Shown: piece after piece, positions 3,979 to 56,230 of the stretch
Numbering within the stretch: the first letter of the stretch is position 1
Layout: each line of letters begins with the position of its first letter
NCBI GenBank assembly: GCA_963969495.1
Contig: OZ018333.1
Location: 93,011,207-93,075,206, forward strand
Direction: 5' to 3'
DNA from: Ceratothoa steindachneri
Taxonomy: Eukaryota > Arthropoda > Malacostraca > Isopoda > Cymothoidae
DNA length: 64,000 bases
Notes under the pieces: model-generated
Told to the model about the DNA's origin: nothing
Databases searched by the model: none
Seen by the model: only the letters and a program-made list of their open reading frames with translations
Program-made: the position numbers and the translations under genes

Positions 3979-4313
3979 TGCTAAAGCTAAGAGAAACACG
4001 TCTGCCTTTGAACGTGGAAGAAGAGATCCAATGAGAGGTTGTTTAGGCTCGTGCAAATGAATTGGAGTTTTTTTTTTGTATAAGCGTCATACAGTTACTG
4101 GTACACAATGTTCAAGTGGTGTGTGTTCGTAGCCGAAAACTCCGACATAAAGTACTGCTGCGTAGGTTGTGTTTTAATAAGTTCCAAAATGTCGATGTAT
4201 CAAAAATGCACACGAGTTTATGTCCTGTTCTGCAGATTAGAAGTAATGTGTTTCTTGCCATTTGTTTTTATTTATACATTTTTTGTTTTCAGATACCAGC
4301 ATTAACCACTTTG

Positions 4314-4484
4314 ATGGTTATTTTAGTTCTTCCATCCCAAATTTTAATTTGGGGTGTATGTCCTCCGCTTACCTCGACCACCATCGAAGACCGACTTTTA
4401 GAGTACGCTAAGGATCTACTGAAAGGTGAAGATCCTACAAAATATCCTAAAATGGATCCATCAGGGAGATTCCCAGATTTGAGT
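4314..4484 (+). CDS. PL8 exon 1 (signal peptide and N-terminal helix)
   Basis: Residues 1-57. The ATG at 4314 is the first in-frame Met after a strong acceptor at 4291-4292 and opens a hydrophobic leader (MVILVLPSQILIWGVC). The exon ends in GRFPDLS, the PL8 block seen in bacteria as DGSWPDI. I chose donor GTAGGT at 4485 because it leaves phase 0, which fits exon 2. The stronger-looking GT at 4489 would break the frame. Confidence 0.8.
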
Positions 4485-7400
4485 GTAGGTTCATTCAATA
4501 ATTGTCCTTTGATATGTTTCAAAAATCACCCCATTATTAAGGGTCATTGTAATTCTGACGACATCAATAAAAACTCTTGCACTGACACATAAAACATTCT
4601 CCCATGTGCAGAATTATTAGGTTTCATCCGTTTATCAATTTGTTATTTTTAATATTTTTATTTACTAAATTTGTATTTTGCTTATTCCTGGAGATGTTTT
4701 TTAATAATTTTTTGGCTTTCCAATTACTCAAACCACAGATACGAACAATTTTATCTTGAAGGATGCCTAGACCTCCCTCAGGACCGAGTTCACCTTCAGG
4801 AACTAAAGTGGCTGAGCATTTTCAATTATAACAGTGCCTTTTTTTCTTGCTAGCAATTCAAATGACTGAGCATTGTATAAATATCACAATGACCCCCACC
4901 TCCAACTTGTCTTTTAGTATGGGTCGGAAAATGACTTCAAAGTCCACGGTACTCGACTGGGGGCAATCTTCCTCAGAGATATCAATGCTGGGAACCCATT
5001 CGCACCAGAAGCAATTGCCTCTCTCGACTACTTAGCAGATCCTACCAAGACGCAATCCCTAACAAGTAAGGAGACTGATGCATTGTTCTGTTTCCTACGA
5101 CCTCGATTCGTGACTCCGACGAAGACGTAAATAGGTACAGGATCAATCAAGGAACCTTTGCTTCTTAGGACAACCCACACGAGTTAAGGAGAAGGGTCAA
5201 GTTAGCTCTGTATTTTTATCCAACTCAAATTAAAGGGAGAAAAAAATCGCCTTGAATTCTATCTTCGATAGGCAACAGTTCACTCCTAGGGTGCGTGCCC
5301 GTCCTCATCTGCCCCAACCAGGAAACAAATAAGTAACCCATTCAGCACCCTTCCAATAGCCACGACCATATAAAGGAAACAAACATTTGCACACTAATAT
5401 TTCTCACTCACAACATCTTTGCCCCAACACACTCAGCAACATCTCTGCCGAGGTCATTCCGGGTGCGAGCGGCCATAAGAACTTTCACGCTGTAGGATAC
5501 TCCCGCCAATCACGGCGGAGCGCCCTGTTTCGCGCATCTACGCAGACACCTTCATATTCGTAGCTCATCACTCACACAGTAATTTACAACACTGCCCTCT
5601 TTCACTTCTCCCATTTACGCATCACTTTCATGCCTAAAGGGGTAAATATTCCCTACTCCCCTGAGGTTGACCGGGTGGCTCTCCTTCTAGCTACAGTAGG
5701 ACTCCAAACGCCTATGATCGGTGGCAAACACACTAGTATCATTCTCACCCCCACCCATCTTCATCCCCTGAAGCTGATCTTCGTCCCCTCGGTCTTGGTT
5801 GTGATTGTCATTCCGATTTTTATGCTGGTTTCATTATCCTGTGAGGAAATCTCTTCCAAATGGAAGGGATGGGTGGCGCTAATAAATTTATTTGGTAACG
5901 TCACAAATAACCGTCCTTGTGAACTGCTGGACCTGTGTCACTTAATTCCAGGCTCTAACTGGTGGGATCATGTGATCGGGGTCCCCGAAAAGATGTGGGC
6001 GCCGATCTTTTTGGCGAGGAATGACGTCACTCCACAGGTGAAATCCAAATACATCGAAAGGTATGGTTGAATCAGTCATCTCTTGATAACCATGCTCCAT
6101 CTGGACCAGTAGTATTTAATTAGGAGACGTAAGGTAGCGCTCATTTAGGTATTGAAATACAGTTGCATGTCCTAACGTAATTAAAATGTAAAATACAAAT
6201 GCAAACACCCAACAATCACAATATGCGAGACGCACAAAAGTCGAGTGATCCCTGCATTGCCGCGAGATGTCCTTTTTACTGCCTTTAAGAAGAAGTCATT
6301 TCTACCGATGGCCGCATTCTTCCCATCAGTTATTTATTTGACACTTGAATTGAATAAGAAATGCACTCGTGGACTAAGTTGAACAGGGGAGGGAAAGGAG
6401 ATTGTCTATCACTCCCATCTGTGACTCAGAATAAAACATTTTGGGGCAATAAATCGATCCACACGGATCTTGACATCGTGGTATTTTTCAGGTATTTTAC
6501 ACAAACCAAGAGCGGACCAGTCTGGAACTTGAGCGATAAAACGGGGAAGATGTCAGGTTTGTAGAAGTATCCGACTCTCTTTGTTTGGGCCGCATACAAA
6601 CATGTACACGCAGTGTGTTTGTCGACCTCATTGTGGAAAAGTACTTAAACTCTATAGACTTTTTTCCTTGACTCTGTTTCATTCTTGCAGATAACTAAAT
6701 TATGTTTCTGATTTTGACCTAAAGGCTTCGCAAGGTTGGTGAGGCAAATTTGCTTTTGTGAAGGTGTCGGTGTTCTAAGGGTAATACTGCCCCGTGCTCT
6801 TTGATATTTACATAAGATTGTGTTTGAAGGGCGACCGAAATATGCATTTGAGTATGGCTATTTTGGTTCCTTTTTGTACTAACTAGAATTTTCTTTGAAC
6901 AAAACCAAATCTTGAAGTTATCGAAGAATCTCTTTTTAACTAACTCGTCTTATCTATCCCTCCTTTCCTCTCACCCATGGATAAACATTAACTGACATCC
7001 TTTCTTGTACCACTCACCCTCACTTGATATTCTCAGGAGGGAACATGGCACCGCGGCTATTCCTCGCTCTGGTGGTTAATTTCCTGGAGGATAATTTGTG
7101 CAACTTCGACCAAGAGGCAAAAAGTGTTCTCGAGAGAGAAGTGATCAAGCGTGAACCCTACGACGGGGAAGGATTGAGGTGAGGAATAGGTGTCCTTAAT
7201 GGGGCGGGGGGGGGGAACAAAGCTATCAACTGGAGCAATAAGAGTTTAAAGACTACTTCCGTAAGAATAATCCGGACTACTTGATAAAATATTCTGCGAG
7301 CAATAAATCTGAACCGACCACCCCACTTCTGTAATATCGAGTACTTGCTTCTCTTTGTTTAAGATCAACAAGGCTGGTTTCCAAAGTCTCTTCTTATTTT

Positions 7401-10400
7401 ATAAATAAGGGGAGAGAAGTTAACAATGTCCATGTTCTGAGGTGGGATCTTTTTCCAAAGGCGGGTGTTCAAGTTATTACCGCTCAAATAGACTCGCATT
7501 TCTGGATTTACACTACTTTATTCTGAGAATCAATTTTTAGGTAATGGAATACAGGATTGTGAAAAATGTTTGGTACGGTAAATAAACTTTATTCAAGAAA
7601 CCAAACAAAATTAATGCGGGTGTTCAAGTTATTACCGCTCAAATGGACTCGCATTTCTGGATTTACACTACTTTATTCTGAGAATCAATTTTTAGGTAAT
7701 GAAATACAGGATTGTGAAAAATGTTTGGTACGGTAAATAAACTTTATTCAAGAAACCGAACAAAATTAATGCTAAGTGGTAGGAAAATGCAAAAATAAGC
7801 TTCCTTTATTGATACATAATGGATAGTTGCCATCTTCCTGGCAATTTTCTTGCACCATCTCCAAAGTAGGTCTTTGATTTTGCAGAAATCCTCGCATCTA
7901 AAACACCAAAGATTTCTTCCAAAGATGAGAACCTCCTACAGCAATCCGAAAATATTTAACTTTCTTTGAGAGTTTGAGTATCATAACTGCTACCGGCGTC
8001 CACAGATACCCAGGTTACTTTCCTATGTAGTCCTGAGGAAAAGGGTCCCTTCCCTCTCCAACGGTTGAAGTTCTGCCCATTTTAGAGTGTCTCTGGTGCA
8101 TGGTTCCTCAGTGGGCTAGACCTCAAACCTGCTCTTCCAGGCGCCTCCAATTATTTCTTTCGCGTAGAACGGTATAGTTGGAAGGAGGCGAAATGAGTGG
8201 CATTCCAATCCATTTCCGTTTCCATGCGCTGATTCAGAGGGCGCTAAGGAGGCTGAGGGGGTTGAAGCCCCCTCCCACATCTTTCCTCTCATTAGCCAAC
8301 AGTGACAAGCGAAGCGACTTCATTAAGCGTCCCCTACAATGACATGATTCAATCATTGTGATCATCGAACTCCTGTCGGTTATTGTCATCGAGGATGACT
8401 GCAATTCGGAGGCGACGGCGGGACCATTACTGATCGTAATCCAAAAGCCACCGTGCTTTCTGATTGGCTATGTTTTCGCAGAATTGGATTTAGCTCACAC
8501 CGTGGAGCCAAGCCGAACCGAGCCGAGCCCTGTAGTTTCCTACGGTCGATATCCGCTACGATTGCTGAAGTGAAGACGAATCTAAATAGGACCCGAAAAT
8601 ATACACTGACCAGCTTCCACGAAGTCTTAAAGAATGCTTAGGAGCTCCTTCACGTACCTCGAGTTTGTAGGCGGCAAACGCAACAAGCGAACGTAACCTA
8701 CCAGCCAACTAGGGAATATTCCTGCCGATATGTCTATGTCCCGTTCATTGACCAGGTATTTACTGAGCGGCAGAGCTGGTTCGGGGACGACACTTTCCCG
8801 GTCATTTTCAACATCACATTTGCTCTGTGCGGCGTCTACGGAGATGTTACTGTTTTATTGGAGGCGGCAACAGTCTACAATGCTGATATCGAGGCCTTAA
8901 GCCACATCAAGGCGAAAGTAAGGCGCTGGTTTTCCTCAACAATCAAGTTTGACCCCGTTGGAGATGCTCTTGGTCAAGACCAGACCCCAATGTATCCAAA
9001 CCTGGCTACGCTCTTTCAAGGTCTGATCACTCTCCCAGTCTCGAATGCGGAGGCCGAACGTTCAGTTTCGGGCCTGAAAGAATAGATACCTTCATCAATG
9101 CATTTGCCCAAAGGAACGGGAGGTTGCTTATGTCAAATAGCGTGACCCATGTTGTGTACTAAATGCTGTTATTAACCCTTTCAGACCAATCTACCTATGT
9201 TTATGTTTCTTTTCTAAGCCATACTTGTATTCTGCTATTCGGAAAAGGTTTTGTAATAATATAAAATATTTACAAGAGGAGCGGCTTTGCTTCTCCTCCT
9301 TACAGAAGGAGCTTGCGCTTCGCAGGCAGACCTTCGGTTTGTAGAAGGTAAAGGTATCTGTTCCATTTCAGGATCGATTTGAGCAGTTAACGTTCATATG
9401 TCTAGTGTCAAATTCTTCTGAAATATATTTATTACTTTCTTCTTTTTTTATATCTTCTCCCAGTAGAAAATTTTCACTATATTTTTTAATAACTTCTTTT
9501 TAGATTTTCTCTTTTGTGATTGTAACCTTTATTTTCTTCTAAAATTTTATTAATAATCTTATCTTTAAATAATTCTTCGTATACTTTTTCTATAGTTTAT
9601 TCCATACTTTCTCAATCCTCAATTTTCAAATTCTAAAGCAACTCTTAGAAATAAATAATATGCTCTTGGTCTATTTTTTCACACCGATACTTATTTTCTA
9701 GGCCAAAGACCAGAAAAAAACTTTCATCTGAATTCTTTTTAAATAGAGGAAAAAAATTCTCACGATTCTTTTTTTCTCAATCTAAATTAGCTCTAATAAA
9801 TTCTTTTGTTTTACTAATTTTTAGGGGCCCGTAACTATTTACTCCTGATAAAGATTAAAATTATGATCTATTTTAGCAATAAATTCGAAAATTGAAATCT
9901 AAAAAGTGACCTTTAGACCCCCAACAGAGTTGCCAAGGGTTATTTTTTATATTACCTATAAAGAACCATTTCCAAATACCGTGATTTTATGGAAGGCAGC
10001 AGAATTTCATATCAAAAATCGACGCTGAAGACATCTCACTTTAGATAAAGGAGGAAACGGTTGAGGCAAGGGAGGCTCATAACGCCAAGTGTTTTTGCCT
10101 CATCAAACCTACGGTGAGAATTCGTTAAAGAACTTTAAACCGGCACCAAGAAGACTTGATGTCGTGCTAACTCCCCCCCCCTCCCGCTACGGAGTCGCGA
10201 AGCTGAAATGAACTGATTTGCCACTCATCTAGTCTCGCCACAACTATGTCGGTCCACTTTGATAGACATAATTGGGGACGTAAAGGAAAGCAGGTTTGAG
10301 GATTAGCCCACTGTGGAACTCTACGGAAGAGATCGCCCGGTTACGAGGCGATGCTGAAAGCTTTGGGTAAGAGTTCGCTCTAATCTCTAAGGGGAGCTTC

Positions 10401-13400
10401 CGGCTAAGACCAAAGGGGGACACACAACCGTCCCTGTGTAAGTTGGAAACAGCATCGATATCCAAACCCCAGATGGGGCGGCACCCCGGGTGGTGGTAGT
10501 TGATTCTATCACCGCCCATCATCAAGTCCGCCACTCATCACCCATCTGAGGGGCCTCGCCCGGGTCCACCCTCCATCATTCATCCCCCCCATTTGGCAGT
10601 TCAGTTCACGTAAGCTTAGCGATGAAGTAGAGGGAGTCCCACACAACAACAAATAATCCGAGAAGAGAAGGAGCACCATTCTGTGGGAATACCAACCACC
10701 CACATCGAGAGCGGACTGAGAAGAACAAATATCTGGACTGAAGGGCCACTCTTGTGAAGAGATGGCCAAGGACCACACGACCAGGATCCCTCTGCGGGTT
10801 GTCGACGGGCAGCCCAAGCCCAGCAGAGAGTCCACTTTTGAGGCCGTGTACGGAGCACTGGGCATAGCCATGGTTAGGCTGCTGGATATCACCTCAGGTT
10901 ATATCGCCATATGCGAGAAAGAGAAGGATATCGAGGAAATAACCAAAGAAAGGGCAGTAGAAGCGCTGCGAGCCATTGGACTGCAGCCAGCAGATCCGTG
11001 CAAAGATAAAGCTTCGGCAAGCCTGGGCCAAGGTAGCCAAAGTTATTAAGTTCATGAACAGAAGGGACGGTGGTGAATACACGCATGTGTTCAAGGTGGT
11101 CTTCGCGGAGACTACCATGGCACATAAGGCTAAAGAACAAGGACTGCTAATGTTCAATGCCAAGATCAGTGGAGAGCAAGTAGAAAAGGGATAATACACT
11201 CCAGTCCAGTTCTGTTTTAAATGCTACCGGATGGAATCTCACGCCACCAAAGACTGCAAGGAGCAGCAAGAATCTTGTTCCAAATGCAGCCAGCAGGGCC
11301 ACAATTGGCGCAACTGTGACAGCAACACAGTGAAGTGCATAAGCTGTGGGCAAGGTCATAGGACTATGGCCATGTCATGCCCCGCCAAAAAGGAGATTAT
11401 GAGAAAGAAGCAGGAAGCCAAGAAAAATGAGGAGACGCGTAGAGCGAACACGTCCTATGCCCAGGCAGCTAAGGCAGCCATCTCTGAGGTGGACGCCAAG
11501 AAAACCTATCTTAAAATCGAGAAGTACGTAAGGTAGCAGTCGAGGCAACAACTCCTGCTCCCACTCATGGCAAAACAGAATCGGCGACAGACAACCCTGA
11601 CAATAGCAGTTCTTCGGAATCCTCAGATTCCTCAGACACGGAAACACCCAAACCCCACGATAAGAAGGAACAGAAGAAGAGAGTGAAGAAGTATATTCCA
11701 GGGTATAAGGTCAAAGATCTACAAATGGGAATATGACTCAGAGGTAGATCCCGAAACAGTGGAGGAGGCCCTGCTCGCGCAAAATGTGATTCTACATCAC
11801 AGCACATGCGAGCAAATCTCGAACGCTGAGTTTAGGAAGAAGAAGAACGGGAGAAAAAAGAACATCACCTAGAAGCACTAAACGACAGTAGATGGAGAGA
11901 GTAAGCAACAGAATGAGGATTCTGACACTCAACGTGAATGGATGGGAGAAGAAAGCCACGGCATATGGTAACATTTTCCGTGTGCTCGACCCCGACATCA
12001 TTCTACAGCTGGTCGCATTAAAATACCGGGCTACAGAGTAATCATGAAGAACCATTTCCAGGAAAGATTTGATGGTGCTGCAATAGCTGTCAAGAGGAAC
12101 ATCTCCTTTAAACAACTTCCAGAACTCGATGAGTCCTTCATGGCAATCGAGGTACACACCCTGGTAGGAGACCTCGTGATAGCTGCAGCATATCAACCCC
12201 CTCGATCAGTATATCTCCCGTTGTGCAACTTCTACACACTGTTCGGGCACCGCAGAATGGCATTCTTAGGGGGAGACCTCAATGCCAGATGCCGTGCGGC
12301 GGGCTATGGTAGCACCAACGATAGAGGCCGAAACTTGGAATTGATTATGGGAAGAAGAAACAATCAAATGATAGGGCCGGATTTTCCGACCTATATCACT
12401 TCCAGATCAGCAACTAAGCCTGACATAATCTTAACAAGTGAAGGCTTCCCTTTCAACTACCATAGTGAGCCGGGCCCGGCAGTCCCTAGTGATCACATAG
12501 CGATTCTCACAACAATATCTCTCGCACCAATCCAGCTCCCAGCCTCTCTCCGGAAAAATTACGCCATGGCCAACTGGGATCGTTACAAGCAACGACTCAG
12601 TGACTATGCGCCAGCTGACCTCAGCACGGCGTCGTTAGAGGAGATTGACAGGGAGTTGAAGAGGATAACAACGTCCATACTAAACGCAGACCGCGAGAAC
12701 ATACCCGTTACAGGGTATAAAACACCTCCTCAGCCCAGATGGACAGAGGAGATGAGAGATATCGCTCGCGTTCACAGGGAAGTGTTCGGAGAAGTACGAC
12801 GGGAGGGTCCCAGCCGGGAAAGGAGCTTGCTGCTTCGACGCCTAAGCTCAGAGCTTAAAGAGGCTATCAACCTCCAACAGGGGGAAATATGGAACAACTT
12901 GATAGCCAAAGTCGACAGCGAACTTAGCCCGGCCAAGTTCTGGCGCCAAGTCAGAAACTTAAAGGGACTTACACCAAGACCCAAGGCTCGGATAAAGGAG
13001 AACGGAGACTACATTGAGAACCCGGTGGTACTCGAGGATATGTTCAGGAACTTCTGGAAAAACGTTTTCAGGATTACACCCGAGGAAAACGTTGAGTTCG
13101 ACCAGGAATTCGAAGGCCAACTGATTGAACAACTAAATCAGGAAATGCATCGCACACACCCACTACAGCAAGTCAACGAAGGCAGGGAGATGGCGGGTCA
13201 TGGACGTCCCATAACATTAGAGGACGTCATGGCCATTGTAAAAGCCTTTCGACAAAAGGCACCAGGCTGGACGGGTATCACCAGAAACAACTTGGTTAAC
13301 GCTTCACAGCAGATCATTCAGGGAATCGTTAATATCTACAACGCTTCCCTGAACACGGGCTACTTCCCGGAAGGTTTCAAGATTGCGAAGGTGATCTTCA

Positions 13401-16400
13401 TACCCAAGGGAGGTAAGCCCCCTGATCAACTGGTAAACTACAGGCCAATCGCCCTGCTGGAGTTCATTGCAAAAGTCTACGAGAGACTCCTAGCTGACAG
13501 GCTTCAACAACAACTTGCCGAGCTAGGAGCCAACAACCCTCAGCAGCACGGGTTCCGCAAGGGACGAGGAACGGAAACAGCCCTCGCCCTTCTTGCGGAG
13601 AAACTCGCTTGCAGTAAAGCTGAGAGGCGGTACGTAGACGTGGTGCTGCGTGATGTAAAGAAGGCCTTCGATAAGGTTTGGCTGAGAGGATTACAGTACA
13701 AGATCGTCAACCTCCAGCTTAACCCATTCCTGGAAAGGATCCTTTGCAACTATATCTCCGATAGGAGAGCCCGAATTTCAATCGAGGGCTGCAAAGGACC
13801 AGAATTCGAACTTAAGGCGGGAGTTCCATAAGGCAGCTGTCTCAGCCCTCTGCTGTACCTCGTGTACACAATAGACCTGCCTGCTCCAGTGAGGTACGAT
13901 TCGATGTATCTGCAATATGCAGACAACATCACCCAAATCGTCCTGAGTCCATTCAGGAACTCTGGAAGCCAGGCGAGGGCGACAGCTGTCGAAATTGAAA
14001 ATATCAATAGATATGAAAGAAAGTGGAAAATTAAGACCAACCGCCAGAAGTTCACGATCATTCCAATGAACCGCCGGAAAGTTGATGACGTTGTCGTCAA
14101 TAACGAGAACTATCCGTACTCCAACGAGGGTAATGTCCTGGGCTTACGACTCTTCAAATCGGTATATAAGACGCACATGAATACCAGAGTCTCCCTAGCC
14201 AAACGAGAGCTGAAGAAACTCTACCGTTTCCGAGGCCTCAGCGTGCCTAACATCAAAAAGCTGTATATGGCCTTGGTACGCTCAGTCCTGGTGTACCCGG
14301 CCGTGATTCTGCAGATGGCAAGCTGTACCTCTCTCAGAATGATGCAGAGAGTGCAGAATAAAGCCACGCTGCTGATTACAGGCACGCGAAGGATCGACCG
14401 TACTCGGCAATCGACTCTTCACCAAAGAATCGGTCTAAAGCCGATCAATACGGAGATCCAAAGGCTAGGGAGAAAGACATGGGACAAGATAGACCAAACT
14501 ATACTCCCGAACATGAACCTGAATTTTAATATTCGTGCAAACCGGAGACGCGCTATAGGTAGAACTGCTGTGTTCCCAAGCAGTAGAACCTGCGCGAGAG
14601 AAGTGGTCCTACCTATGTTTACGTAATGTTAGTCCACTACTCTAAAATTCTATGATTTTAAAACTCAAAAGTTTGACAATTAGTCCAACCAAGTTAACAA
14701 TTTAAAAAAAAAAACAATTGAAAAAAGAGGCGAAGTGCCCACATTAAAGTCCCCTCCCCCTCCCCCCCCAATATAAACATAGTAAGAATTAATAAAATTA
14801 AATCTAAATTTAAATATAAAAGAGGCGAAGTGCCCAAACCTAATAATCAAAATTTAAAGTCCACATTAAAGTCCCCTCCCCCTCCCCCCCCAATATAAAC
14901 ATAGTAAGAATTAATAAAATTAAATCTAAATTTAAATATAAAAGAGGCGAAGTGCCCAAACCTAATAATCAAAATTTAAGAATAAAAAGAGGCGAAGTGC
15001 CCAATTCCCAATACCCATTTGATAACAAGAAAACTAAACAAAGTCAACAAAATTCAAACGAAGAAAAGAGGCTAAATGCCCATATTAAAAAGATTACAGA
15101 GTACTCAAAACTGAGATTCATTCAGCAAGAAAAACAACCTTGAAAGGCTTGAATGCTTCGAAGGTGGAAATACCTATCACATAAAGAAATATATATATAT
15201 ATATTATAACGGAGGAAACTGGCTGTCAATGACAGTCAGCTACTTATTGACGGTGGAATTTTTTATTTTTTAAACAAAACATGAAGAATGCTAGTGATGC
15301 CCTAACACCAGGGCAAACTAGGAAACATATTCACACCTTTATATACCTACCACACAATTTCACCACTTTAACTTAATTTGTAATTTGCAATTTGTGATTT
15401 TATGGAAGTGGGGGAATAAAGATTGGAGGGTAATGGGCAAGACGAAGCTGCTTAATTATTCAATCTTTAATCCAGCATCCTTATTATTAATTAGTTCAAA
15501 GATGCAAACAAATAAATAAAAGAGGCCTTTCGTTCAGTTTATCCTTTTTTTAGGCAAGATGGATGTCTCCACCAGCACAATCTCATCTGGAAAAGAGCTG
15601 CTCCAGGCGGAGGAGTGGAGAGATATGTCTATTCAATGATATACTTCAACTACGGCAAAGAATTCCTGAGGGTGAGCAACATTAATAAGCTTGGCAAAAT
15701 AATGAAACCAAAAGGTTCCGAAGAAGTGAGGAAGACTCTATATCTTTCTTCAGTGAAATCTCGTGATGATAGTTAAGAGACTGTACGTATTTATGCTACA
15801 TACCATTCCCTGATTGACATATGTGAGCCAATATTTTAAACAATGGAAGTCCTTGAGATTGTCAATCCATGTCTATCGATAGCAGACGCATCAGTGTTTC
15901 TTAAGGCCAAGGTTACCGTTTTCTCTACTTAATTAGGTGTTTAAGAAAAGGGGTATTTCTTTTTAGCAATTTCAGCATGAAGTACATTGAAGTTAAGTGA
16001 AAATCGGACGGTATGGTGTCCCGGACCCCTTTACAGATTCTCGACAGAGGATCCTTAACTACAGGTAGACAAGTCCGAGTCTAAGTATGCACGGCCTCAT
16101 TTATAATCCCGAGGCATCACTATTTAGGACAAAGTTTGGGAATAAAACAAGGCAAAAACACTTTCAGAACGCTGCTCGGGTCATGTGGATTTTAGATGGT
16201 TCGGACTACGATTTGGGAGACAAGATTGAGTTGGCCATCTTCGCATCTTTCCTAGAGTGCCAACAATGGCTGTACAAGCACCGCACGGTTGATCCTTCGT
16301 CTACCGGTAGATTTATCGACTCAGGTACTCGTAAATCCAAACCTTGATTTCTCCGATCGGTTGATTGAATACTTTCTTATCCAAAATCCATGTCGTTAAC

Positions 16401-19400
16401 TATGAGGAGAGGAGTGCGATACCTTCTTATCCATGGTAGTCATATGTAAGATTTGCTAATGATAAGTTCGGGCACACGATAGGTTTGAAAGGTCATTTTG
16501 GAGAATCCAATTTTTTTATCTCCCAATAAACTGTATTTATAGAATTATCTCACAGGAAAACGTGTCACTAAATACGTCAGCAAAGATGGCGTTCAGGAGC
16601 CATTGAAATACTTTTTGAGAGTAAATCACAACAGGAGTGAAATTGAAGCCGCCAATAAACGCTACGAAGATAAAACTCCTGATCCCATTTATGCCTTGGA
16701 GGGCAATAGACATTTCTTCGTGTAAGTAAAGGAAGACAGTGATCATCTACAATATATGGAAATATCTATACGAATATTTTAAAATTAATGAAATGTCAGT
16801 AAACTTCCAAATTTGCTTCTAAGGACGACTTTTTTCACACTCGAAATCGAACAAACTGTCATAAAAGTGTCCATTTCAGCTCCGACATGATGGCTCATCA
16901 GAGATCAAGATACATGTCTACTCTGAGGCTCTTGTCCACAAGAACTGTGAGACCAGAAACTAGTCCTCGAACTCGCGAAAATAACAAAGGATATTTTGAG
17001 GTTATTTTAAAACTCCATCATAATTAACTGACCTCTTTATAAATTGAATTACCAGGCCTGACTAAACCGTTTTTACAGTTCGCACTGGTCACTGTCCATA
17101 TATTTACTCCTCCCGCGAGCCGTAAAGTGGGGTTCTCTTTGTTTCAGGGCGATGGATTCCTCAGCGTAATGGTGACGGGGGAGGAGTTCGGAACCTTCGA
17201 AAACGAGGTCTTTCAAGTCTATGACTGGGCTCGAATCCCAGGCGTCTCTTGCCACTATACAACTATTATCCCAGAAGTAATTCTAAGAAAGTTTCTAATG
17301 TTCTGGTTTTGTTGATAGTGTGTTTCTTAATACACTTTTCGGCGGGTCCTTTCTTCAGGCTTTCCGTCACCTCCATATTTTGGATGAGACTTGCTAAAAA
17401 TAGTCATATTCGGGAATCTGCCATTCAATAAAAGCATGGTTCTATCACGCTGCCATTAGTGATAATTATATCGGCAATTGTGCAAGGTTCTTTGCAAATA
17501 ATTCCATAAAATGGCATAATGATGCTTTTAAAATATGCCATCACCCTTTTATTTATTTATTATAGTGATTGACTATTATTATTGTTTTCTCATAGAAAGA
17601 AACCATTTATGTAAGAGAACGGATGCATGCATTCAATAACGCTGATTTTGTTGGTGGCGTCTCTAACGACCGAGAAGGTTTTGCTACGATGGTCTACAAG
17701 AGGCCAAGCGTGCCTTTAAATGGGAAAAAAAGCTGGTTTTTCACCGACTCCGTTATACTCTGCATTGGATCAGACATTACTCTCCCACCCACCGCAGTCA
17801 ACAACGAACCAGTGATCACAACACTAAATCAGGTCAAGTCACACTTAGATCTATTAGCAGAGATAGATACCATGGGTCCATGCTATATTAGCTATTACTC
17901 TCGGACTAGTTAGATTATCAACCTTCTAACTGAATAAGTGTATGCGTAGAAGGCATACAATTTGTAAAGAGGAAGCATTTCGTCCTGTCATATTTGCTCA
18001 AAATTTTAAATACAAAATTTTCTCCACTAATTTAAAGACATGAAAATCCTGGCTGGAGGCAAAAGCCGATCTATGTGTTAGTGTAAAAGTTTGTGAGTTA
18101 TTACTATGAGATAATGCATGTCTTAGATATTTATTTATTATTGAAATCCACAGGTTGTATACGTTGGGTCTCATGCTGCTTGGGAGGCAAATAATTCTCC
18201 CACCACTTCTCCAACCGCAGTGACTCAGAAAATAGAGCAAGAGTTCGATATGTTGAATAAACCTCGATTTCACCACGACTCGGTTGGGTATGTGCCTCTC
18301 AAGCACAACGGAAAAGTGCGACAACAACTGGATATAAGAAGGCACAACAGACCAAAGGCACAAGATATTTTCACCTACAGGTAGGTCTTTTTAATGGCCA
18401 AATTCTTAATCAGCAGCGGATATTGTTTGCCTAACGTTAAATTTAGACTGGGTGCGGAGAAATAAATGAACTTTCCAAATGAGGACTTATAAGTGCTAAA
18501 TATTCAATCCGTGATTGAATGAGAGAGGGAATGACTCGTAGAAATAACTGTCCATTTTACGCATCGTTGGAAAACGAGTGTCGCAATGGAATTTTTTATG
18601 GATTTTAAATATTTATCGTTAGAATCAAAGATTATGACGTTCGAATGATTCACCTGCCTCGTGTAAACATAATTTTGGTTGAATCCATTACTAATACCAA
18701 TATAACATTTTCAATATTAAGGCAAACTTGATGAAAGTCTTACAACAATTTATCGAGAGGATTTCGATAAACATAATTGCGTTTACACGAATACTTTTTC
18801 CATTTGATTATTCAGATTTCGGTTCGCTTTTTCGTATGACAGAGACTGTATGCTTCGTTGTTTGGATTGGGATTACTGGATAATTTGCCCCTATTTCAGG
18901 GATATTGTTGCCAGTCATAGAAATACTATAACTTTTTGAAAGTTATAAAACGATGGGGTATGAATTCTACGTCAATTGACCAACAATTAGTAATTTTAAT
19001 TTCCTACCCCAGTTTGTGGTTGGATCACGGTCAACAGCCATTAAATGCGGAATACGTGTATGCGATTCTACCGGGGAGAAGTGACATTGAGACGGAGAAC
19101 TTTGCCCAAAATCCAACCGTGCAATCTTTGATGACGTCTTCGCAGCTTCATGCTGCAATTTCCTTGGCACCCCATAAGGTCGGAAAATTTACTATGTCTA
19201 TTGATGTCTTGAGTTTGCTAATATAAGCAATAAGGTTTGCAAAGGTCTCCTAAAAATCCCAGGGCACTTAGACTCCTAATTATGACACTTGGAATCTTCC
19301 ACTTTTGTTAAAAACTATATTAAGCAAATAAATAATAAAATAGGCCACTTTATTTCCTTCAGAGATTGCATCTTTTTTTCGACTATAATCTTTTACGCCA

Positions 19401-19915
19401 TATTTACAAATCCCTCTCCCTAGAATCATTTATGTGACTATCGTCGTCTGTCCACAACTGTCTTGCAGATGTTCCTTTGGTTTTACCATTCCATTTTCTT
19501 TCTATTTATTTATCAGTCATTAAACTTCATCTGACAAATTTTAAAATATCAAATAATTCTCTAAGAAGAACAATTAAAATAACCTTACATGTTTCAGGTT
19601 CTCGGTGCGGCATTCTTTGTGAGTGGTTGCTTGGATGGTTCTTCTTTTGATCCAAATTTTGCACAGATCTGCGTCAATGCCCCGGCTTTGCTTTTAGTCA
19701 AAGAAATGCCTCCTAACGCTCCTAATTGTCAAGATGTTCCTAATCAGTTGGCAGAGCCGAGTTCCCTCAGTATTAAGCTACAAATTAGCATTGCTGATCC
19801 AACACAAAAGAAAACTAGAATTTCGTTAAAAATTGATCATTGGTTTTTGCATACTTTTCATCTCCCTCGAAAGCCATTAAGCGGGAAGAGTGTCATAAAT
19901 TGTTTCGAGATCTAA
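4314..19915 (+). CDS. secreted polysaccharide lyase family 8 (PL8) protein, 14 coding exons
   Basis: Joined exons 4314-4484, 4918-5065, 5952-6060, 6492-6556, 7037-7178, 15554-15671, 16168-16324, 16556-16721, 16880-17000, 17148-17276, 17596-17832, 18154-18380, 19013-19178 and 19598-19915 give 757 residues plus a stop. All introns are GT-AG and every phase matches. PL8 enzymes cleave uronic-acid polysaccharides (hyaluronan, chondroitin, xanthan) by beta-elimination. Residues 1-16 look like a signal peptide, so the protein is probably secreted. Residues about 20-355 form the helical toroid (NWWD at 109-112). Residues about 356-620 form the beta-sandwich (FVGGVSN 460-466, KKSWFF 486-491). Residues about 625-725 form the C-terminal domain. 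By family alignment the catalytic candidates are N167, H220, Y245 and R299. The Y245-R299 spacing of 54 equals that of bacterial enzymes, but His-Tyr spacing is 25 instead of 9, and the usual second Arg (R+4) is Ser303. Length is normal for the family. The substrate cannot be told from sequence. Horizontal origin is an inference. Confidence 0.9.
4918..5065 (+). CDS. PL8 exon 2
   Basis: Residues 58-106 plus one base. The acceptor is CTTTTAG and the donor is GTAAGG. The stretch with HGTRL, AGNPF and ASLDYLADP corresponds to the PL8 block 'H..RL..A....S.lyGN..l...i..aLdyl' just before the NWWD motif. Confidence 0.85.
5540..5625 (+). mobile_element. possible old SINE tail in intron 2
   Basis: ATCACTCACACAGTAATTTACAACACTGCC and the pyrimidine-rich stretch after it resemble the body of the tRNA-derived SINE at 34948-35230 (ACACAATTACAACACTGC). 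No A or B box remains. Similarity is limited to about 50 bp. Confidence 0.35.
5952..6060 (+). CDS. PL8 exon 3 (NWWD motif)
   Basis: Residues 107-143. Contains SNWWDHVIGVPEKMW, a direct match to the PL8 signature NWWD.EIGVP. The acceptor is TTAATTCCAG and the donor is GTATGG. The phase-1 entry completes Ser107. Confidence 0.93.
6492..6556 (+). CDS. PL8 exon 4
   Basis: Residues 143-165, a 65-nt exon between acceptor ATTTTTCAG and donor GTTTGT. It carries DKTGKMSG, which joins to exon 5 to build the TGxxxGGN block holding the catalytic Asn. Its entry phase (2) and exit phase (1) fit both neighbours. Confidence 0.8.
7037..7178 (+). CDS. PL8 exon 5 (catalytic Asn)
   Basis: Residues 165-212. GGNMAPRLFLALVV corresponds to bacterial TGANR.d.alv; N167 aligns with the catalytic Asn. 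The exon ends in YDGEGLR, which runs on into the DG..HQH motif only after splicing across the 8.4-kb intron 5. Acceptor TTCTCAG, donor GTGAGG. Confidence 0.88.
7461..7770. repeat. 155-bp tandem duplication in intron 5
   Basis: The unit starting GCGGGTGTTCAAGTTATTAC at 7461 starts again at 7616 and differs at only a few bases, so the duplication is recent. No coding potential was seen. It lies at the 5' end of the enlarged intron. Confidence 0.95.
8690..9120 (+). mobile_element. hAT transposase C-terminal remnant
   Basis: The frame at 8858-9085 ends in MYPNLATLFQGLITLPVSNA followed by EAERSVSGLKE. This is the C-terminal dimerisation block of hAT transposases (LPVS.A..ERsFS.lk). A stop follows directly where intact proteins continue. 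Only the extreme C-terminus is recognisable. The upstream part (8358-8690) is open in places but not identifiable. Confidence 0.65.
9130..10030. other. AT-rich stretch of intron 5 without genes
   Basis: Mostly T-rich low-complexity sequence (9420-9830). A patch at 9280-9350 with GGAGC..GCTTC inverted motifs vaguely resembles the ends of the dispersed repeat at 33671. Nothing coding. Confidence 0.4.
10762..11536 (+). pseudogene. LINE-A ORF1 (gag-like zinc-knuckle protein), broken
   Basis: An RNA-binding nucleocapsid-like protein. It starts at ATG 10762, changes frame near 10985 and has a stop at 11192-11194. Three knuckles follow: CFKCYRMESHATKDC, CSKCSQQGHNWRNC (classic CX2CX4HX4C) and CISCGQGHRTMAMSC. 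The tail is Lys/Glu/Ala rich (KKQEAKKNEETRRANTSYAQ). A related knuckle region, also frameshifted, is at 40980-41155. Confidence 0.8.
11916..14626 (+). pseudogene. LINE-A ORF2 (endonuclease + reverse transcriptase), broken
   Basis: Starts MRILTLNVNGWEKK, the APE endonuclease start. A small deletion near 12008 removes the TE-H motif. The frame then runs from 12044 with GGDLNARCRAAGYG and PSDHIAIL (endonuclease), and RT blocks DVVLRDVKKAFDKVW and AGVP. A TAA stop at 13829 replaces the Gln of VPQG. The same frame reopens to 14626 with LQYADNITQ, where the catalytic YADD has become YADN. No RNase H domain. About 900 codons in all. Confidence 0.88.
14735..15000. repeat. LINE-A 3' UTR tandem repeats
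   Basis: A 122-bp unit (ACATTAAAGTCCCCTCCCCC onward) at 14741 is repeated at 14863 almost without change, and shorter GAGGCGAAGTGCCCA units recur at 14726, 14822, 14945 and 14989. A unit of similar design (CGAAGCGGACA or CTAAGTGGACA) is in the 3' UTR of copy 1. Confidence 0.9.
15554..15671 (+). CDS. PL8 exon 6 (catalytic His and Tyr)
   Basis: Residues 212-251. QDGCLHQH matches the PL8 'DGSf.QH' motif, so H220 is the likely catalytic His. FNYGKEFL matches the block with the catalytic Tyr, giving Y245. About 16 residues more than in bacterial enzymes separate the two, including a glycine run (PGGGVERY). The acceptor has a long T tract (TTTTTTTTAG); the donor is GTGAGC. Confidence 0.88.
16168..16324 (+). 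CDS. PL8 exon 7 (catalytic Arg)
   Basis: Residues 252-304. NAARVMWILDG continues the helix after Y245. ECQQWLYKHRTVDPSSTGR corresponds to the block ending in GR.ISR, with R299 as the conserved Arg and Ser303 where a second Arg is usual. Acceptor CTTTCAG, donor GTACTC. Confidence 0.87.
16556..16721 (+). CDS. PL8 exon 8
   Basis: Residues 304-359, between acceptor TCTCACAG and a consensus donor GTAAGT. The middle is poorly conserved and Lys/Arg rich. It ends in LEGNRHFFV, which joins SDMMAH of exon 9 to make the PL8 block 'l.g.r.f..SD.m.H'. Confidence 0.82.
16880..17000 (+). CDS. PL8 exon 9 (start of beta-sandwich)
   Basis: Residues 359-399. SDMMAHQRSRYMSTLRLLS followed by RENNKGYFE matches 'sD.mvHhR..y..s.km.S.Rt...E..N.EN.KGyy'. 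E392 and N393 or N394 are candidates for the acidic and Asn residues that assist the catalytic site in chondroitin AC lyase. Acceptor ATTTCAG; donor GTTATT is weak. Confidence 0.87.
17148..17276 (+). CDS. PL8 exon 10
   Basis: Residues 400-442. GDGFLSVMVTGEEF plus YDWARIPGVSCHY correspond to 'GDG..ylm..g.ey.....vwDW.riPGtT' of PL8. Phase 0 at both ends; acceptor TTTGTTTCAG, donor GTAATT. Confidence 0.92.
17596..17832 (+). CDS. PL8 exon 11 (central beta-sandwich signature)
   Basis: Residues 443-521. Contains FNNADFVGGVSNDREGFATM and NGKKSWFFTDSVILCIGSDI, the most diagnostic PL8 blocks, and ends in TTLNQ. Phase 0 at both ends; acceptor TTCTCATAG, donor GTCAAG. The reading frame stays open to 17913, but splicing at 17833 joins exon 12 in frame. 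Confidence 0.94.
18154..18380 (+). CDS. PL8 exon 12
   Basis: Residues 522-597. It carries FHHDSVGYVPL, matching the 'HdgvGY.f' block, after a low-complexity Ser/Thr/Pro stretch. Acceptor AATCCACAG, donor GTAGGT. Exit phase 2 completes Ser597 with exon 13. Confidence 0.88.
19013..19178 (+). CDS. PL8 exon 13
   Basis: Residues 597-652. LWLDHGQQPLNAEYVYAILP matches the PL8 block 'l.idHG..p....YaYvllP'. Acceptor CCTACCCCAG. The donor GTCGGA is weak but leaves phase 0, and the resulting join HK|VLGAAFF matches the family. Confidence 0.88.
19598..19915 (+). CDS. PL8 exon 14 (C-terminal domain, stop)
   Basis: Residues 653-757 and a TAA stop. VLGAAFFVSG, NAPALLLVKE and LQISIADPTQ match the C-terminal PL8 domain, where bacterial enzymes read '..aAvF', 'd.PalvlV.e' and 'l.vsDPT'. 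About 35 residues follow the DPT motif. No AATAAA signal is clear in the next 200 bp. Confidence 0.9.
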   Translation, partial: VLGAAFFVSGCLDGSSFDPNFAQICVNAPALLLVKEMPPNAPNCQDVPNQLAEPSSLSIKLQISIADPTQKKTRISLKIDHWFLHTFHLPRKPLSGKSVINCFEI

Positions 19916-20999: not shown

Positions 21000-22190
21000 T
21001 GAATCACGAAAATAAGGAACGTGAGGAATTTATGAATATCGTTACAGCCACGAGGAAAATAAAACAACGGAGAACTGCGAGGCCTTTCGACTAATGGTCC
21101 TTTACTGAGCAGACTAAAAGACAGGGAAAAAGAGAAAGATATTTATACACCTGATTAATGAAAATATGGGATATAAAGATTAAAAGGGGTGGGATTAACA
21201 GATACCTGGAAAAAACCTATTAACAAGGGTTAAAAAAAAAAAAAAAAAAGTTTACGGGTTACAAAAGAAAGGAGGGGGGGGGCCAATGCTTGGGAATCAC
21301 ATATGCAATATGAAAACAAAAAAAAGTTTACACATGATAACTAGAGAATATGACAAAAGAAAAATATGAGGAAAGGTTTTTTATATAAATAAGCTAAAAT
21401 AACTTCTATGTGGTAATCATTAATTCAGAAATTTTATCTTTAAAGTCATTCTTAAACATTCTTTTGATACAAGGGTCCAAAAAATACATTCCAGGGCTGA
21501 GATTAAAATTCGAAGTCAGTTGTATAAATGCTGATTCTAAAAGATTTCGTGAAAAAAAGTCATTTGATTTGGCAATCACAGAACTCTCCTTCCAATTAAT
21601 ACGATGGGAATTTTCACTCAAATGGATAAAAATGGCATTTGATGTTTGCCCAGTGCTTACAGAGTACTTATGTTGCTTAATACGCACATTCAGATCCTTG
21701 CTAGTTTGCCCAATATAAAATGAAGGGCAATCCAAACAAGGGATTTTATAAATTAAGTTATTTGTCTGATTAGGGCAATTTTTTATTAACATTCTTTTTA
21801 AAGTATTAGTATAAGAGGAAACAAGATTTACATTAAGTGTTTTTAACAATGTTTTTACGGTTTCAAAGCCATTAAAATAAGGTATAATGACGATATTCTT
21901 GGGCGCTTCCATCTCAATAGTACTTTCGTTATAAAACTTTTTTTTGGCTTTATTATAACAAATATCAAGTAATGAAGAAATGAAACGGCAAACATAATTT
22001 TTTTTAGGGAATGTTGTAAAATTAAACCGTTCCCTCTCATTAAGTTCATGACATGGCCACAACAGATTTGCCGGCAACCATTTCGACCAAAAGACATGAA
22101 GAAAGCAGACATGAAAGCCTCTATGTAAGAAATTTTATATTGCAGAAAATAGTTTGCTACAATTATAAAAAATAAAATAGTCACTCAAGA
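21000..22190 (-). mobile_element. Penelope-like element remnant with GIY-YIG domain
   Basis: The - strand frame 22077-21406 (223 residues) covers the C-terminal part of a Penelope protein. It contains NNLIYKIPCLDCPSFYIGQT and KDLNVRIKQHKYSV (GIY-YIG core with Arg and His), then SHRINW and RNLLESAFIQL (catalytic Glu). The RT domain upstream is absent. The segment 21000-21120 carries the 3' region (GAAAGGCCTCGCAG, TTTTCCTCGTGGCTGTAACG on the - strand), which other Penelope elements also carry. The GIY-YIG core looks intact. Confidence 0.85.
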
Positions 22191-54479: not shown

Positions 54480-54482
<3 letters not shown>

Positions 54483-54499
54483 TAAAACTCATTTATTTC

Positions 54500-55189
54500 A
54501 TGCTTGACATAATACAAGAAGTTTCGCGAAACAAAAGAGAATCCTGTGTGGGCGGTGGATGCTGTCTTGCCCTTCCCTCTCGCTGCCTTAAAGACAAAAC
54601 CAAGAAACTTCCAACACCAGGATTTGAAAGAAACTCACGTACACCAATGCATTCATCCCGAATTGAGGCAGAGAAAGCTCAGATTTCTGAGAATTCAGTT
54701 GTTGCTCTGATGGTGAGCGGCAGCGACCTCTACCTCAGAGGGGGTAAGGTTGGCCTCAGTGGTAAGACCATCCAAAGGGTGATGGGAGCCGTGGACAACA
54801 TAGGGCTTAAAACCCGCAAACGTGTGGTGGTTGGCATGCTTCCGAGAAGAGGTCCATCCCGAACCGCTCACGAAAGAAACGTTGCAGTGAACAGAAGGTT
54901 GGCGGATCTCTGCACGGCAGAAGGAGTCTTCTTCGTGGACCCCTATCGTACCTTTATCGGTATAGACGACCTCTACCAAAGGGACGGGGTACATCTCTCC
55001 TTTGAAGGGAAGGCCTTTCTTTCCAACCTAATTCAAGATGTCGTGGAACGCACCCAAATGAGCGTTCGAAACAAAGCGAAAGCGGACGTGCGCCAGCATG
55101 CCCGTGTCACTCCTGGAACGACCTTCTCGGAGGTCGTCAAAAAGGGTGTGACCACGAAAACAGAGAAGCCGGGAAACGGAAGAGCGTAG
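54500..55189 (+). CDS. SGNH-hydrolase-like ORF1 protein of a CR1-like LINE
   Basis: A 229-codon uninterrupted frame. VALMVSGSDLYLRGG, KRVVVGMLPRRGPSR, NRRLADLCTAEGVFFVDPYR and RDGVHLSFEGKAFL match the second half of an SGNH/GDSL esterase domain, with DGVHL giving the catalytic D-x-x-H pair. Such esterase domains occur in ORF1 proteins of CR1/L2-group LINEs. The N-terminal part with the nucleophile Ser block is not evident, so the 5' end may be lost. The C-terminus is basic. The true start is uncertain. Confidence 0.78.
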   Translation: MLDIIQEVSRNKRESCVGGGCCLALPSRCLKDKTKKLPTPGFERNSRTPMHSSRIEAEKAQISENSVVALMVSGSDLYLRGGKVGLSGKTIQRVMGAVDNIGLKTRKRVVVGMLPRRGPSRTAHERNVAVNRRLADLCTAEGVFFVDPYRTFIGIDDLYQRDGVHLSFEGKAFLSNLIQDVVERTQMSVRNKAKADVRQHARVTPGTTFSEVVKKGVTTKTEKPGNGRA

Positions 55190-56216
55190 GGAGTCCTACA
55201 CTAGGTGACTCCCTCAAAGTTCTTCTGTTCAATGCGAGGTCAATCAGGAATAAGTTTTTTGAGCTCCGTGGCCTTCGTAGTAACAGAGGAACCTGAGATG
55301 GTGGCAATAACGGAGTCGTGGATAAAAACCTCAAGCCAAGATTTTGAAGGTAAATTCATGATTCCCGGTTACCAGCTCTTCCTGAAAGATAGGCCAGACA
55401 GAGAGGCTGGCGGTGTGATGTTGTATGTAAAGGATACTCTCAACTCGACGGATTGCAACATCGTATCTGACCATGAACTACTAGGTGTTGACCTAGAGAT
55501 AGGTCCTGCCAAATACAGGACCCTGGTGCTTTATAGACCTCCTGCCCAACTCGTTGAAAAGGACAGAGATCTGTACCAACTACCATGAGAACTTGTCGAA
55601 GACAGAGTGTGTATTGTCATGGGTGATTTCAACAGACAAGTTGACTGGCAAACCAGAGAACCCTGTGGCGAGAACGCACTACTCCTGGAATTCGCGAACA
55701 ATGAGTTCCTCACTCAATGGGTGAGAGAGCCAACGAGTGGAAACAATATCCTCGACTTGGTTTTCACCTCTGAGGATGACATCGTTGAGGACCTCTCTGT
55801 TGGCGAAGAGCTCGGTGGCAGTGACCACCGACTAATTAGATTTGTAGTCAAAGTTCCAAAGGCAGGGCCTGCAACTAGTAAATTGAAGAAACTCGATTTG
55901 AAAAGAGTAGACTTTGCAGGTCTTCGTGCTGGACTGACTGACGCGAGGCTAGAAGTGTGTGATGTTGTTGAAGACTCGTGGAACAGTTTCAAAACCCCAT
56001 TCATGAGTCTTCAATCGCGTTTCATCCCTCTAAAATGTCCCCGTCGGTCTTCTGTTCAACCAAAGTGGTTTAATCGAGAAATCGGCCAACTGCTCAGGAA
56101 GAAGAGAACTGTGTACCGGCAATCGAAGATCTTGGGTAACCTTGACGAATACTGGAGGCTAGCCAGGAGAGTGAAGTCCAGCATAAGGGTGGCTAAGCGG
56201 TCTGAGAAATCTAGAC
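54500..56216 (+). mobile_element. CR1/L2-like LINE: esterase-type ORF1 and endonuclease, 3'-truncated
   Basis: ORF1 (54500-55189) and the endonuclease part of ORF2 (about 55195-56216) follow in normal order. The element stops abruptly at about 56216 where Penelope sequence begins, so RT and 3' end are absent. It is the best preserved coding pair among the LINEs here, with a continuous ORF1. Confidence 0.82.
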
Positions 56217-56230
56217 AAGAGGTTGTATGA
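55195..56230 (+). pseudogene. APE endonuclease part of the CR1-like ORF2
   Basis: KVLLFNARSIRNKFFELR opens the domain. After a frameshift near 55270 come VAITESWIKTSS (catalytic Glu), AGGVMLYVKD, VMGDFNRQVDW and GGSDHRLIRFV (catalytic Asp/His). One in-frame TGA at 55586. The downstream linker KPKWFNREIGQLLRKKRTVY is typical. The frame ends at the junction with the Penelope fragment. Confidence 0.83.

Follow-up and report, generated by a model that had tools for sequence, protein, structure and literature searches.

An intact PL8 lyase gene of the fish-parasitic isopod Ceratothoa steindachneri belongs to an old malacostracan family and is predicted to serve digestion

Glycosaminoglycans are usually cut by lyases in bacteria and by hydrolases in animals. 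A gene of polysaccharide lyase family 8 (PL8) on a chromosome of Ceratothoa steindachneri, a cymothoid isopod and fish parasite, raises the question of whether it is truly an animal gene, how old it is in animals and what it could do there. The gene lies in a stretch of 64,000 nucleotides (hereafter the window; positions 93,011,207-93,075,206 of contig C17, chromosome 17) of the 3.93-Gb assembly, where an initial annotation, made from the letters alone, had proposed an intron-rich animal PL8 gene of an ectoparasite; as to the ectoparasite this was correct. The mitochondrial COI on contig C529 points to the same group of isopods, with 90% identity to Cymothoa and 88% to Ichthyoxenos and Elthusa as the highest among 120 matches listed. 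An independent rebuild from conserved splice sites reproduced that model exactly, with a gene at 4314-19915 (+), 14 exons in matching phases and a 2274-nt coding sequence (CDS) for 757 residues, or ~86 kDa before processing (Table 1). All 13 introns are GT-AG and their phases are consistent. When the window protein was searched against the window by tblastn, its own exons were found and nothing further better than E 2.5, indicating a single copy there. Five other copies in the genome show this set of 14 exons with identical splice sites and frame, and the window gene differs from one of these, the chromosome 17 copy p95.49, with a synonymous divergence (dS) of 0.54 and a nonsynonymous divergence (dN) of 0.16, indicating that the gene is not a product of chance. 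Bacterial contamination is ruled out by the 13 GT-AG introns, an intronic retrotransposon, the chromosome-scale context and the many copies. The window protein matches PF02278 Lyase_8 with 159.8 bits (residues 354-619; Pfam cut-off 27) and PF08124 Lyase_8_N with 37 bits (residues 90-304; cut-off 24), which together with the introns bears out an animal gene of the PL8 family. We conclude that the cymothoid isopod has an intact, intron-rich nuclear gene at this locus, and both its reality and its PL8 membership are as good as certain.

Two additional exons were considered for the model and dropped. One, at ~5168-5234 (reading DNPHELRRRV...), loses its frame in p95.49, and exons 2 and 3 connect in phase without it; the other, at ~16000-16065, has no donor in p95.49, and exons 6 and 7 connect in phase 0. 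Note that the first several dozen bases of intron 2 (window 5066 to ~5150) are about as conserved in p95.49 as exon 2 is, and that the same stretch in p95.49 contains a stop; a role in regulation or splicing is possible.

The window protein was combined with seven further animal proteins and with P0015, a metagenome protein, into a nine-sequence profile, which was compared with solved structures. Its best chain was chondroitinase AC 1hm2, matched over the full length with 294.9 bits and aligned through the C-terminus, while xanthan lyase (167 bits), the mannuronan lyase 7r2x (155 bits, about half of the 1hm2 score and still a significant match) and hyaluronate lyase (104 bits) scored lower. 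On the other hand, the single domain Lyase_8_C (PF02884) gave no match in the window protein at E 0.001; it is present in 8 of the 13 crustacean homologues described below. N167, H220, Y245, R299 and E385 align to N175, H225, Y234, R288 and E371 of 1hm2 (numbers counted from the printed alignments), which we take to be the catalytic residues of PL8, so that all five are kept as judged from the alignment. Chondroitinase AC (1hm2/1cb8), presumably from Pedobacter (Flavobacterium) heparinus, has the same domain order and these matched residues; the window protein differs from it in 16 extra residues between His and Tyr, in Ser303 for Arg292, and in a gene with 13 introns.

We then asked how widely such genes occur in animals. 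A database search gave 92 matches: 13 crustacean, one annelid (Owenia) and 78 unnamed metagenome or bacterial/JGI-named. The 13 crustacean proteins, three of them from Penaeus vannamei, are all from Malacostraca (decapods, krill, mantis shrimp and woodlouse). The non-animal relatives listed have 19-29% identity to the window protein, and an alignment-profile database search, in which the 8000 candidates with most shared words were scored, gave no further animal. The notion of a gene peculiar to the parasite does not hold, given the homologues in shrimps, lobster, crab, woodlouse and one annelid, and a recent parasite-only transfer is ruled out by the crustacean ones. The crustacean proteins named 'chondroitinase-AC-like' at NCBI (Penaeus, Homarus, Eriocheir, Armadillidium and others) fall in the same clade as the window protein with 33-47% identity; note that the PL8 copy count given below is from C. 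steindachneri alone.

A tree of 32 rows (9 animal rows and 20 of the best 80 GTDB loci) unites all its animals, Owenia with Malacostraca, in a single clade (100/100). The isopods cluster within this clade (100/97), and P0015 is its sister (100/99). Two trees made more quickly, one of 70 rows and one of 55 rows that included 36 of the best 80 GTDB loci, agree on this. The malacostracan genes are one clade in all three trees, so that any transfer from bacteria would predate Malacostraca; from these sequences, PL8 is old in Malacostraca and not a novelty of the parasite. The PL8 tree suggested in the initial annotation thus delivers an old malacostracan clade, but beyond Malacostraca it contains only Owenia among animals. 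In the approximately unbiased (AU) test, a grouping of Malacostraca with P0015 that leaves out Owenia was rejected (p-AU 7e-5), a value to be taken with caution given the long branches.

The animal proteins also share a structural mark. Between the catalytic His220 and Tyr245 the window protein has 24 residues, versus the 8 usual in bacterial enzymes. In an alignment of 185 rows, 15 of them animal, the spacing was 22-25 residues in all 14 readable animal rows (the Armadillidium fragment was unreadable at His and Tyr), and the crustacean 'chondroitinase-AC-like' proteins have the same insertion wherever it can be read. It was 19 residues in P0015 and 6-8 in 131/131 readable non-animal rows; the 169 rows other than the animals and P0015 comprise these 131, in which both residues are aligned, and 38 that were not counted (the His column being Arg in 37 and a gap in 1). 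These spacings were taken from the alignment and replaced a regular-expression count, whose pattern was missing from 31 of 104 database proteins and 47 of 80 loci. Columns filled below 30-40% were dropped from the trees and the insertion columns, by their filling, fall under these limits, indicating that the insertion backs the animal clade largely independently of the trees. By sequence, the animal PL8 clade is marked by its own insertion between the catalytic His and Tyr, a feature absent from the initial annotation. The insertion changes fast (15 nonsynonymous, Nd, and 2 synonymous, Sd, differences over 23 codons); with so few sites, positive selection on it is not claimed.

Where the animal gene came from is less clear. 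The animals and P0015 make up their own branch, which was not seen nested with an identifiable bacterial donor group. P0015 itself is a 744-aa protein on a JGI metagenome contig of 4582 bases; its relatives in GTDB do not exceed 31% identity among the best 80 of 182 loci, and no donor is in sight. Among the animals of the 32-row tree, decapods and mantis shrimp come together (98/97), and the order of crab, lobster and shrimps is unexpected (92/92 and weaker). This branching differs from the accepted species tree of Malacostraca and is odd for simple vertical descent; old paralogs or long branches could be the cause. The data fit one old animal PL8 gene, which would have been acquired very long ago or else be ancestral to animals and lost from most phyla. 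The ancient bacterial acquisition proposed in the initial annotation is possible if placed before Malacostraca, but no donor was found among the loci compared, and vertical retention with losses fits as well. That PL8 was present in the protostome or animal ancestor and was lost in most lineages, with no transfer to crustaceans, has a less than even yet considerable chance. Owenia groups with Malacostraca, the AU test speaks against excluding it, and it shares the His-Tyr insertion. In addition, two genes of the choanoflagellate S. rosetta bear the name 'chondroitin sulfate lyase', and the authors of that study regard them as candidate transfers from bacteria (PMC7971027). On the other hand, our two database searches, of limited reach, gave no other animal phylum, so that many losses would be needed.

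To see how the family is represented in C. steindachneri, the genome was searched with the exon 11 peptide, which matched 19 places at E 1e-5 or better. Sixteen of these matches cover almost the full exon; 14 lie on C17 at 71.3-95.9 Mb, and C270 and C1 have one each. The other three are partial and all on C17. The genome therefore holds at least 16 PL8 loci, 14 of them on chromosome 17, a multiplicity that the initial annotation did not contain. Gene models were made for nine copies, the window gene and eight others, all on C17. Six (the window gene, p92.63, p71.39, p71.44, p78.13 and p95.49) keep 14 exons, frame and splice signals. Exon 14 was not found within the fetched stretch for p71.97 and p91.50, the acceptor ahead of exon 13 in p71.97 is non-AG, and p71.35 is broken by length changes in exons 1 and 9, with 32 stops in the joined reading. 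The window gene and p92.63 are 99.4% identical over at least 19.5 kb and are a recent segmental duplication. The dN/dS of the window gene was 0.30 against p95.49 (757 codons), 0.38-0.46 against p71.39, p71.44, p78.13, p71.97 and p91.50, and 0.28-0.46 over all seven scorable copies, indicating that the PL8 proteins are under purifying selection; in p95.49, Arg replaces the Asn of NWW. In the copy on C1, which was read partially, the breaks between the matches to exons 6-11 fall on the same residues as those of the window gene, suggesting that these introns predate the divergence of the two genes. The same chromosome 1 copy carries a 57-bp minisatellite of ~26 copies (L027:4469-5941), whose unit resembles the splice acceptor and beginning of PL8 exon 13 (SLWLDHGLHP), as though the edge of an exon had turned into a tandem repeat. 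Chromosome 17, which holds 14 of the 16 loci, has the highest GC (42.5%) among the 23 chromosomes listed (PMC12361884).

As to function, we favour with moderate confidence a secreted digestive chondroitin/hyaluronan lyase, one of the chromosome 17 paralog family, that serves the digestion of fish tissue. Judged from the sequence, lyase activity of the window protein is likely, secretion and a digestive role are probable, and a significance for feeding on the host is plausible; the secreted glycosaminoglycan lyase foreseen in the initial annotation is upheld as a likely prediction. The protein would be secreted, most likely by the digestive gland, and would act by beta-elimination on glycosaminoglycans that contain uronic acid (chondroitin sulfate, hyaluronan or both). 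In PL8 enzymes, Tyr and His abstract the proton while Asn neutralises the carboxylate. Here the Tyr245/His220 pair would remove the C5 proton of the uronate and Asn167 would neutralise its carboxylate, with Arg299 and Glu385 in support, to give an unsaturated uronate as product. In the parasite, the copies may digest fish mucus, skin, tongue and cartilage matrix.

Besides the gene model, the PL8 domains, the match to 1hm2 with its conserved residues and the purifying selection, three lines of evidence were considered for this proposal. First, similar family searches, whose locus counts are lower bounds, gave a single apparent locus for a GH56 hyaluronidase, on C36, where four matches follow gene order within 14 kb; we count this contrast with the 16 PL8 loci in its favour. 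Second, the available part of a shrimp study places the homologue LOC113799989 (P0013 in our list) among the genes characterising hepatopancreas cluster HepVp9, whose cell type is not identified there (PMC12902777). Third, red king crab, also a malacostracan, provides beta-elimination on hyaluronan and weakly on chondroitin sulfate: according to the accessible text, hepatopancreas homogenate produced a C4-C5 double bond in hyaluronan, as examined by absorbance at 232 nm, NMR and chromatography, and cut chondroitin sulfate much more slowly (PMC8604925). The authors assign the activity to a 42.5-kDa, 372-residue relative of EC 3.2.1.35 hydrolases found via similarity and cDNA cloning, whereas the activity tests used homogenate, and a PL8 gene is not considered in that text (PMC8604925). 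A PL8 gene may be a simpler source of such lyase chemistry and is a candidate for the crab hepatopancreas activity. Beyond the shrimp gene name in PMC12902777, our literature search, with subscription journals mostly outside its range, found no characterised crustacean or other animal PL8 enzyme among the papers listed. Isopod transcriptomes give polysaccharide lyases in bulk (PMC6555040), and the term PL8 does not occur in the available main text of that paper or of a study of 815 arthropod species (PMC11543626).

Several observations weigh against this proposal. The crab activity gave a zymogram band at 40-50 kDa, preferred hyaluronan and ended at a tetrasaccharide in the available text (PMC8604925); band and end product speak against a simple identification with the ~86-kDa PL8 protein. 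A second chondroitin AC lyase, 1rwa, scored 127 bits with the profile, under the xanthan and mannuronan lyases, so that the substrate is not readable from the scores. With 118.6 bits the window protein lies far under the cut-off of 1000 for the NCBIfam equivalog NF043001 (chondroitinase AC), and specificity is not to be taken over from that name. Furthermore, Ser303 stands at the place of Arg292, presumably the second active-site Arg of chondroitinase AC; of 11 animal rows, 10 have no Arg at this position, whereas P0015 and 11 of 12 bacterial rows keep it (24-row alignment, used for the bacterial counts as the column is unreliable for bacteria in the 185-row alignment, where 14/15 animal rows are without Arg). 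The family search gave no match in the genome to a GH88 unsaturated-uronide hydrolase, other families for that step lying outside the search. Finally, the start codon and signal peptide of the window protein are uncertain as predicted: the signal-like leader of the initial annotation does have a hydrophobic core, but no basic residue precedes it. In addition, the frame stays open from the ATG back to a conserved splice acceptor 21 nt upstream (polypyrimidine tract and AG also in p95.49), so that translation may truly begin in an upstream exon. All in all, chondroitinase AC is by the alignments the nearest solved relative of this PL8 lyase, which does not certify the window protein as a chondroitinase AC. 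A wider proposal, that an animal PL8 clade with its loop was acquired or fixed once before Malacostraca and is shared with an annelid, is the source of the beta-eliminative cleavage in crustacean hepatopancreas and was amplified to at least 16 loci in the parasite, replacing the usual animal hyaluronidases, is tentative and in our estimate rather doubtful.

Other functions were weighed against digestion of fish tissue. A lyase for alginate (mannuronan) or another algal polysaccharide, inherited from algae- or detritus-eating crustacean ancestors, appears unlikely: 7r2x, named a mannuronic acid specific lyase, outscores 1rwa, the gene is present in other crustaceans, and PL8 alginate lyases occur in some eukaryotes according to the available part of a brown-algae paper (PMC11468063), but 1hm2 scores almost double over its full length and the many copies are in an animal living on fish. 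Malacostraca with PL8 homologues differ widely in diet, and this would suit remodelling of the animal's own proteoglycans (in moulting, brood pouch or tissue turnover), neither digestive nor directed at the host. We give that explanation similarly little weight since the shrimp homologue is named for a hepatopancreas cluster (PMC12902777, available part) and recent amplification would suit diet or host better than housekeeping. It is equally improbable that the protein is a spreading factor secreted with oral secretions at the attachment or feeding site, as in the initial annotation's idea of action on host skin or mucus, rather than mainly a gut enzyme; the animal is a fish ectoparasite with an amplified family and several intact copies, but the sole hint of expression, in the accessible text, is from shrimp hepatopancreas (PMC12902777). 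That the window copy is a dead duplicate is very improbable, for although one of the nine modelled copies is clearly broken (p71.35), two lack a recognisable exon 14 within the fetched stretch (p71.97, p91.50) and a retrotransposon sits within intron 5, the reading frame is complete, no splice site and none of the five catalytic residues is lost, and the insertion is intronic.

The coordinates of the gene and of its intronic element are listed in Table 1.

Table 1. Features of the PL8 gene in window coordinates
Feature	Position	Strand	Basis
Stretch from acceptor to ATG, open frame; coding may extend upstream	4293..4313	+	Acceptor common to p95.49
Exon 1: hydrophobic leader, beginning of N-terminal helical domain	4314..4484	+	ATG to GT donor; conserved in p95.49
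Exon 2	4918..5065	+	AG/GT conserved
Exon 3: NWWD (N109-W110-W111)	5952..6060	+	Gene model, alignments
Exon 4	6492..6556	+	Gene model
Exon 5: GGN, Asn167 (= Asn175 of chondroitinase AC)	7037..7178	+	Gene model, alignments
Non-LTR retrotransposon insertion and neighbouring repeats in intron 5 (approximate extent)	9986..15421	+	RVT_1, Exo_endo_phos_2
Retrotransposon open frames in intron 5	11972-13831 and 13832-14626		
Exon 6: His220, Tyr245, with 16 residues more between them than the usual bacterial 8	15554..15671	+	
Exon 7: GR motif, Arg299 (= Arg288)	16168..16324	+	Gene model, alignments
Exon 8	16556..16721	+	Gene model
Exon 9: RTxRPE, Glu385 (= Glu371)	16880..17000	+	Gene model, alignments
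Exon 10	17148..17276	+	Gene model
Exon 11: FVGGVSN, KKSWFF (super-sandwich domain)	17596..17832	+	Gene model
Exon 12: HHDSVGY	18154..18380	+	Gene model
Exon 13: LDHG	19013..19178	+	Gene model
Exon 14: ADPT, stop codon	19598..19915	+	Gene model

The flanking animal transposons of the initial annotation are real, with a reverse transcriptase upstream of the gene and RNase H and GIY-YIG matches downstream, and more mobile-element remains are spread across the rest of the window. The element in intron 5 is a non-long-terminal-repeat (non-LTR) retrotransposon whose reverse-transcriptase frame has an in-frame stop. It is present in p92.63 and partly in p71.97, and five of the seven near C17 paralogs compared have an empty site (p71.35, p71.39, p71.44, p78.13 and p91.50). 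Intron 5 also contains two near-perfect or perfect two-copy tandem duplications (window 7461-7772, 155 bp, and 14739-14979, 122 bp), both of which occur in p92.63 too. Downstream of the gene, an open frame at 21406-22134 (-) weakly matches GIY-YIG nuclease (23.1 bits, cut-off 22.6), a nuclease that occurs in Penelope-like retroelements. Another open frame, at 54482-55189 (+), has a below-cut-off match to a GDSL-like hydrolase and is followed by an endonuclease-like frame recognised by eye (55589-56230); the two are probably part of a non-LTR element. Elsewhere in the genome, COI-like stretches with in-frame TGA lie on a nuclear contig (C11:170834712-170836051) and are likely a nuclear copy of mitochondrial DNA.

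Taken as a whole, the locus and its relatives speak, at the level of sequence, for an old, overlooked family of animal lyases with its own active-site loop. The PL8 gene offers a named candidate for an animal lyase activity whose present gene assignment, in the available text, rests on similarity (PMC8604925), and the animal enzymes would join a family used as laboratory and medical tools. For the parasite, the PL8 family is a candidate means by which tongue-biting isopods consume host tissue, and if the wider proposal of an amplified animal clade were true, PL8 would be the parasite's main tool for fish connective tissue and mucus.

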